DNA of 43,381 bases from a virus, in the IMG/VR virus record IMGVR_UViG_3300044732_001817, positions 1 to 43,381 of that record; one strand, written 5' to 3'. A program made the position numbers and the translations under genes. The notes under the pieces were generated by a model. The model had not been told where the DNA came from, did not search any database, and was given only the letters and a program-made list of their open reading frames with translations. Positions 29,225-30,470 of the stretch are shown here, piece after piece. How positions within the stretch are numbered: the first letter of the stretch is position 1; the number at the start of each line of letters is the position of its first letter.

Positions 29225-29491
29225 TCATATTTTTAGAGATGAGGGTATCGAAGGGAAGTTAGCTCCAGAGAAGCTCGGTATCGATGGCATTTTGAATCCT
29301 GCAGAATTAAGGTCTTTTGGAACCATTTTTCTTGCATTTTTCATGGTTTCGTTAGTGTCCATGTTACTTTGTTGTCCTTCTTCGGCCTCTTGTTTCTCTT
29401 TTAGTATATTTATCAAGTTCTGAACGATATACTCGTACTCATAATACGGCATAACCTCCACTTCTGAAGGTTGTAGCCGTAAATGATACAA
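29225..29491 (-). CDS. Small tail-assembly protein; start or frameshift undecided
   Basis: The reading frame stays open from upstream of 29491 to 29225 and contains YHLRLQPSEVEVMPYYEYEYIV, which resembles small phage tail-assembly proteins encoded next to tape measures. There is no good ATG before this block: the ATG at MPYY (29452) would cut it off, and the first ATG (29605) lies in the shadow of the gp26-like gene. A TTG at 29491 would preserve it. Alternatively a +1 ribosomal frameshift at CTT TAA (about 29508-29513) would join it to the gp26-like protein, as in other tail chaperones (see findings). Its C-terminal half is Ser/Pro-rich (PSIPSFSG, FPSIPSS). Confidence 0.7.
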   Translation of the reverse strand: MYHLRLQPSEVEVMPYYEYEYIVQNLINILKEKQEAEEGQQSNMDTNETMKNARKMVPKDLNSAGFKMPSIPSFSGANFPSIPSSLKI

Positions 29492-29507
29492 TAAATAAGT
29501 TTTAGTC

Positions 29508-30470
29508 TTAAAGAAGTTCTCCAGCGATATCTGAAACAACGAAAAGACTTTTGATTCCTCCGGGAAACGTGATCTGTGTGCGCACCTCCGTACCGCACTT
29601 CTCACATTCTTTGAATAGTTGCTCTTTAACGCCTATTTTACACATTTCAGTTAACGCATTGAATGTTTGGTATTTTGTAGTATTCCACTGCATAAATTCA
29701 ATTTCCAAATTTTTGATTTTTTGTTCATTGAATCCTCTCCAATCGGTTGTCATGTAAGGAAGGTTCTTAATAAATGAAGGATCTAATTTCTTTCCTTCTT
29801 GCTCTTGAACTCTTCTGATGTAACGAGTTACTTCTCCCATAACACCAATTGATGGCGGAGCCATTTCAATTGTTCCTGAAGTTTTTGTAGGAATCACATA
29901 CATTTTTCTTTCTTCGTTGTAGTATTTAGCTAATTGCTCTGGAATCTCGTTAGTTTCGAAAGATTGATTATTAATCAAGATTTCGTTATCATGATTACAC
30001 TCTCTACAAGGAACTGTGATTGCTAATTTATTTTCTCCGTTAGCAAAAGTAAGATCTCTAATAGTCATAATTACATGGATACGATCTTCCTCACGCAAAT
30101 CTTTGAAAGATGCTTGTTTTCCAGGAAATCTCATCATTAAACATCCTTTAATGATTTCATTTAAAGCTTCATCTACTGAAAATGGATCTTTTTCATCGAT
30201 AGTAGAGAAATGACGAATTTCTTTAACTGATGCAGCGCGGATAAAGAATCTAGCTCCCTCTGCATAGTAAAGTCCTTTAGATGGGAAATTTGATGGCCAA
30301 ATTTCATGATAACCAGGTAGTAATGCGGGTTCATCATCTCGATCAGTATATGCTGAAGCTTTACCGAGTGATGTAGGTTTAATTGGCTCTTCACTAATAG
30401 GTTGGTTTGCATGGAATTCTCTGCTTTCTAGATCTCCAGCTGCATTTTCATAGTTGTTTTCGTTACTCAT
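29508..30470 (-). CDS. T4 gp26-like tail/baseplate assembly protein
   Basis: 320 residues. After a low-complexity acidic N-terminus (about 50 residues) comes a domain with FFIRAASVKEIRHF and EALNEIIKGCLMMRF that has the look of the T4 gp26 and related tail assembly chaperone family; a four-Cys site is formed by CRECNH near residue 150 and CEKCGT near 292, probably zinc-binding. It ends GELL just before the small overlapping frame and the tape measure, the position of a tail assembly chaperone. Homology is judged by pattern, not by search. Confidence 0.75.
   Translation of the reverse strand: MSNENNYENAAGDLESREFHANQPISEEPIKPTSLGKASAYTDRDDEPALLPGYHEIWPSNFPSKGLYYAEGARFFIRAASVKEIRHFSTIDEKDPFSVDEALNEIIKGCLMMRFPGKQASFKDLREEDRIHVIMTIRDLTFANGENKLAITVPCRECNHDNEILINNQSFETNEIPEQLAKYYNEERKMYVIPTKTSGTIEMAPPSIGVMGEVTRYIRRVQEQEGKKLDPSFIKNLPYMTTDWRGFNEQKIKNLEIEFMQWNTTKYQTFNALTEMCKIGVKEQLFKECEKCGTEVRTQITFPGGIKSLFVVSDIAGELL

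Follow-up and report, generated by a model that had tools for sequence, protein, structure and literature searches.

A predicted +1 frameshift at UUU_C, downstream of a conserved hairpin, in the tail assembly chaperone locus of large contractile-tailed phages

The window analysed here is the whole of a 43 kb virus record (IMG/VR IMGVR_UViG_3300044732_001817; 43,381 nucleotides), in which a gp26-like gene and a downstream open frame lie on the minus strand (Table 1). The gp26-like ORF (29508-30470, minus strand) ends in GGAGAACTTCTTTAAGAC, also given as GGAGAACTTCTTTAAG. An open +1 frame extends from 29605 to a TGA at 29227-29225, and 11 nt separate this TGA from the ATG (29213) of a 1694-aa ORF. 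The 3' end of the gene and the +1 frame down to 29225 are as an earlier sequence-only reading had described them. No tRNA genes were found in the window, and an Rfam search returned nothing above threshold.

Table 1. Positions of the genes and of the observed or predicted signals at the locus, numbered along the window
Feature	Position	Strand	Description or basis
gp26-like 0-frame gene, short form TAC-N	29508..30470	minus	320 aa; PF12322, phrog_150 and phrog_36717 matches
0-frame TAA stop of TAC-N	29508..29510	minus	read from sequence; the CTT TAA of the sequence-only reading lies here
Overlap apparently translated in both frames	29508..29567	minus	frozen synonymous choice and codon-position rates
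+1-frame extension, TAC-C domain	29225..29563	minus	112 aa and TGA; alignment A8
Predicted slip site UUU_C	29564..29567	minus	in-frame TTT-C conservation; A-site codon CCC
Spacer from hairpin to slip codon, constant 10 nt	29568..29577	minus	A6/A7 alignments ungapped over this stretch
Inferred 5' stimulatory hairpin	29578..29598	minus	folding energy against recoding, and compensatory changes
Conserved GGAG loop motif, Shine-Dalgarno-like	29586..29589	minus	alignments A6/A7
Putative tape measure protein, 1694 aa	24129..29213	minus	position, length, composition

The gp26-like protein matches PF12322 (E=7e-6), phrog_150 (E=2e-8) and phrog_36717 (E=1e-26). On the first two of these matches the gene, which lies upstream of a presumed tape measure, retains its earlier identification as a tail assembly chaperone gene. 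In profile comparison, T4 gp26 matches phrog_150, and T4 gp51 matches phrog_150 over the whole protein and phrog_634 in the C-terminal portion. Of the 38 family members, 16 have +1 extensions that match phrog_634, the T4 gp51 family (best E=9e-9; the window member, E=0.02), and one extension hits a phrog whose name is tail assembly chaperone. On the phrog_150 and phrog_634 matches, the gp26-like protein is assigned as TAC-N and the predicted fusion of about 414 aa as TAC-NC, the counterpart of T4 gp51; both products would presumably act as chaperones. When TAC-C was compared directly by hhalign with individual sequences of T4 gp51 or P2 E', no match was significant, and Pfam and NCBIfam gave no meaningful match to TAC-C. 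The predicted structure of the TAC-C domain alone is mostly helical, with moderate confidence (pLDDT 70).

The 1694-aa product is putatively the tape measure protein on account of its position, size and composition; it has no tape-measure profile match. Its C-terminus carries an S74-type intramolecular chaperone domain (phrog_6121, E=6e-11, and a weak Pfam S74 match), and several internal repeats occur around NPGTKDAKLV. Both the S74-type end and the repeats are unusual for a tape measure.

Relatives were collected by tblastn in a phage collection, which yielded Lak phages, PAU, Tenacibaculum pT24/PTm1/PTm5, Chryseobacterium MA9V-1/2, Flavobacterium MaF61 and huge uncultured phages. Two IMG/VR scans contributed 160 further loci, which fall into two clades. 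The comparison set thus comprised about 170 relatives, with 108 distinct sequences for the slip-site count; kinship among the sequences inflates some counts, and the pattern is nonetheless seen in isolates as well as in both clades. The sequences of the broad alignment A2 diverge too much to be scanned for a pattern. The region of S-PM2 that was examined held neither gp26 nor gp51, and cyanophages lie outside the comparison.

In all relatives with enough sequence except one (L019), the open +1 frame reaches back 62 nt or more from the gp26 stop and runs about 160-320 nt past it, and in the same relatives the +2 frame mostly closes within a short distance. In the Lak phages the open +1 frame requires TAG to be read as glutamine. 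The Lak-B5 extension (L006) is open only under this reading, and the extensions of the Lak phages (L006/L007) are longer and hold additional conserved blocks. The +1 products form a conserved family with the pattern xVFSLFQISLxNFFK...LxLQPSExDxxPFYEYEY..., followed by a charged coil and a KMPxMPxF tail. Judged from these sequences, the open +1 frame is beyond chance, and the same arrangement, encoding a conserved protein, recurs across the relatives. The sequence-only proposal of a +1 programmed frameshift joining the gp26-like gene to the next frame is borne out to this extent.

Gene overlaps are common in phages, and the locus could in principle consist of two unrelated overlapping genes, or owe its shape to a sequencing error, with no recoding at all. 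This has a negligible probability, as the arrangement recurs in about 170 loci, drawn from isolates and from numerous metagenomes, and synonymous choice in the overlap is frozen. Sequencing error, in particular, is refuted by the recurrence of the arrangement in about 170 loci.

Within gp26, synonymous choice is ordinary upstream and nearly frozen from exactly the TTT codon of the slip site through the stop, in both clades, which indicates that both frames code in this stretch. The two overlapping peptides of the window are ITFPGGIKSLFVVSDIAGELL, ending at the stop (0 frame), and TFPEESKVFSLFQISLENFFK (+1 frame). In the gp26 body, difference rates by codon position have the usual third-position pattern (0.41); within the overlap they are low at every position (0.02-0.12), and past the stop they take on a +1 pattern, with 0.39-0.44 at the +1 third position. 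Together, the freezing and these rates indicate that translation of the +1 frame begins at about the TTT; a main shift at CTT TAA is thereby excluded, as is a start at 29491.

A shift at CTT TAA (29513-29508) had been proposed as a prfB-like event, in which the P-site CUU would slip to UUU while the stop codon waits in the A site. CUU_U ahead of a stop is indeed a known RF2 site (PMC5009743), and CTTCTTTAAG occurs in the window and many closer relatives. Conservation in relatives, which holds for the +1 frame, fails for CTT TAA outside the subclade of the window, however; other relatives end in GTT TGA, GAA TAA, TTA TGA, AAG TAA or GAG TGA, and CTT TAA is retained only where the two overlapping frames chance to dictate it (ELL-stop/NFFK). 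The GGAG five bases before CTT TAA is likewise confined to this subclade, and a conserved CUU before the stop with a Shine-Dalgarno-like element just upstream, as in prfB, is not found across the relatives. The product of such a shift would lack the conserved VFSLFQISLENFF, which the standalone gene of L019 has, and the synonymous freezing from 29567 onward would be left unexplained. CTT TAA is thus very unlikely to be the principal site, and it may serve as a minor second one.

L019 (3450-3864) is a relative that appears to have abandoned the frameshift and to carry the TAC-C domain as its own gene. Its gp26 has no UUU_C, no GGAG element and no overlap, and the +1 frame is closed; the downstream domain follows a terminator-like hairpin as a separate ATG gene. 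The standalone product includes VFKAFQIDLRAFYKNRVYVQHHLHIQPSEID and so covers the residues that other relatives encode in the overlap with gp26. The 0-frame stop of L011 and L038 precedes the VFSLF-like motif, which is therefore not overlapped there; the motif and the TTT-C site are both retained.

The separate gene of L019 also bears on whether the downstream frame could be a gene of its own with an internal start, whether at TTG 29491 or elsewhere. The second clade has ATG codons in the overlap, and the MA9V, PTm1, PAU and pT24 records annotate short ORFs downstream; both point the same way. Against it, the clade of the window shares no start codon at any position, in line with the earlier remark that the downstream frame has no convincing start, and the conserved +1 sequence begins upstream of all candidate starts. 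The TTG at 29491, offered as the other possibility, is not conserved, and its product would be without the conserved VFSLFQISLENFFK carried by the standalone L019 gene. An internal start would also leave UUU_C and the hairpin without a role, and it is considered improbable.

The slip site favoured here, UUU_C at 29567-29564, lies 57 nt upstream of the gp26 stop in the window and 57-63 nt upstream in most relatives. As at a PA-X-like site, an in-frame UUU followed by C is conserved, being found as TTT-C in 105 of 108 distinct sequences against a background of 8.8% among the Phe codons of gp26 bodies. TTT is followed by a Pro, Gln or Arg codon (CCC 69, CAA 14, CGT 7, CCA 7, plus others, among the 108), and the first base C is the sole shared feature. 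As this C is kept while the amino acid varies, selection appears to act on the base and not on the residue. CCC, the commonest codon after UUU, is scarce (1.2 per 1000 codons in the window, 0.9 per 1000 in gp26 bodies) and may be decoded slowly in the A site, yet CAA, a common codon, stands there in 14 sequences; a rare A-site codon is thus not universal. The E-site codon is ACG in the window and TCC in 14 sequences, so the UCC of a PA-X-type site is not general.

Three of the 108 distinct sequences (L009, L019 and L090) have no TTT-C at the aligned place; L090 carries TTT-T. In L009, CCC is present there. The slip site is displaced in MA9V (L005/L010), where TTT CTA lies much nearer the stop, and in PTm1 (L014), where TTT CAA lies further upstream. 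A slip of tRNA-Phe from UUU to UUC seems to be the only single-tRNA +1 re-pairing compatible with all variants, and the same slip has been proposed as the mechanism for influenza PA-X (PMC3498833). A -2 shift at the locus would lead into the same frame. Since the family-wide site is UUU_C with an upstream hairpin, the predicted junction becomes ...TQITF-PEESKVFSLF... and replaces GELL-KTKTY, which followed from a shift at CTT TAA.

A second frozen synonymous island (GAG GTC), about 15-24 nt upstream of TTT, forms a hairpin. In the window this is GUGCG(g)UAC-GGAG-GUGCGCAC, of 8 bp with one bulged G and with GGAG in the loop; its 3' arm ends 10 nt before TTT. The Glu codon of the GGAG motif is almost always GAG, even though Glu is usually encoded by GAA. 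In clade B, 98% of the cells of a 6-bp stem are paired, with UA/CG and GC/CG exchanges, against 19-65% in slid controls. The 8-bp register of clade A has a covariation of 0.372 against 0.07-0.25 in slid versions; RNAalifold gave no consensus hairpin in that clade, even though the named structure scores above the slid controls. The minimum free energy in the window is -10.3 kcal/mol against -1.5 kcal/mol after synonymous recoding, and the mean energies against synonymous recodings are -7.8 versus -2.9 (clade A) and -8.6 versus -3.2 kcal/mol (clade B). The gain in stability is about 5 kcal/mol, with about 30% of clade A sequences folding no better than their recoded versions. The most likely role of the hairpin is to stimulate the shift.

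Ribosomes of Bacteroidia usually hide the anti-Shine-Dalgarno sequence behind bS21, whereas the GGAG loop looks like a Shine-Dalgarno sequence (PMC9976891 for the ribosomes). Beyond pushing the ribosome, the hairpin might be a regulatory element whose loop senses whether the anti-Shine-Dalgarno sequence is free, an unlikely idea under which the ratio of TAC-NC to TAC-N would be coupled to ribosome remodelling by the phage late in infection. Phage-encoded bS21 was seen in two of 16 related records (those of L168 and L087).

Taken together, the locus most probably encodes a tail assembly chaperone pair, made through a +1 shift at UUU_C with an upstream hairpin, in a large contractile-tailed phage; this reading is given a probability of close to 0.9. 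The phage appears to be a large one of the Bacteroidota type. The comparison supports a shared +1-frame product, a dual-coding overlap that starts at UUU, the conservation of UUU_C and the hairpin, and from these patterns we infer the ribosomal shift itself and its efficiency. Most ribosomes would terminate at TAA and yield TAC-N, the 320-aa gp26-like protein, while some would skip one base at UUU_C, as the P-site UUU re-pairs to UUC, and yield TAC-NC. In one possible mode of action, the GGAG-loop hairpin would refold at the mRNA exit and favour forward movement. TAC-N and TAC-NC would then coat the tape measure and recruit the tube protein, as in lambda G/GT.

The tail chaperone pair is thereby placed for Lak, PAU-like and many uncultured large phages, in which the downstream half is unannotated or labelled as a short hypothetical gene. 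The locus would also be a natural and widely conserved case of the UUU_C +1 class, which influenza PA-X had led others to predict. With its covarying 5' hairpin at a constant 10 nt, it provides a model in which one can test how RNA structure behind a ribosome may promote slippage in the forward direction, and this in hosts that make scarcely any use of Shine-Dalgarno sequences.

Frameshifted tail assembly chaperones are a known kind (PMC5009743). As in lambda G/GT, a short chaperone and a frameshift-extended form are encoded just upstream of a presumed tape measure, and the downstream frame has no start of its own; lambda and P2 shift by -1 (P2 record), whereas the phage studied here would shift by +1 with a dual-coding overlap of about 60 nt. 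The proteins belong to the same families as T4 gp26 (phrog_150) and gp51 (phrog_150 and phrog_634), which in T4 are separate genes on opposite strands, in contrast to the frameshift pair proposed here. Vladimirov, Gautam and Davidson reportedly inferred frameshifting in several other T4-like groups in 2022 (Virology 566:9-15, as cited in PMC10885494), so frameshifting at gp26 genes would not be new in itself.

The influenza A PA-X site, UCC_UUU_CGU, shares the P-site slip from UUU to UUC that is proposed here, and has a slow A-site codon (PMC3498833), which the phage site may have as well; some relatives here have TCC TTT CNN or TTT CGT. The present case differs in its unrelated gene, bacterial ribosome, variable E-site codon and conserved 5' hairpin. 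The +1 sites of Listeria phage PSA likewise lie in structural genes of a low-GC genome where CCC is rare, but there CCC occupies the P site before UGA or UCC (PMC5009743), whereas in the present phages it follows UUU as one among several A-site codons. Stem loops of T4 gene 60 and BYDV are stimulators upstream of, or including, the recoding site, as is proposed here for the hairpin, although they serve other events, a 50-nt bypass and a -1 shift (PMC5009743). The frameshift trick itself is thus known from other phages, while its trigger, a PA-X-like UUU_C with a 5' hairpin, looks unusual; as far as checked, a +1 site of the form UUU_C, a 5' hairpin that covaries and a dual-coding overlap of this length are apparently new in this phage group.
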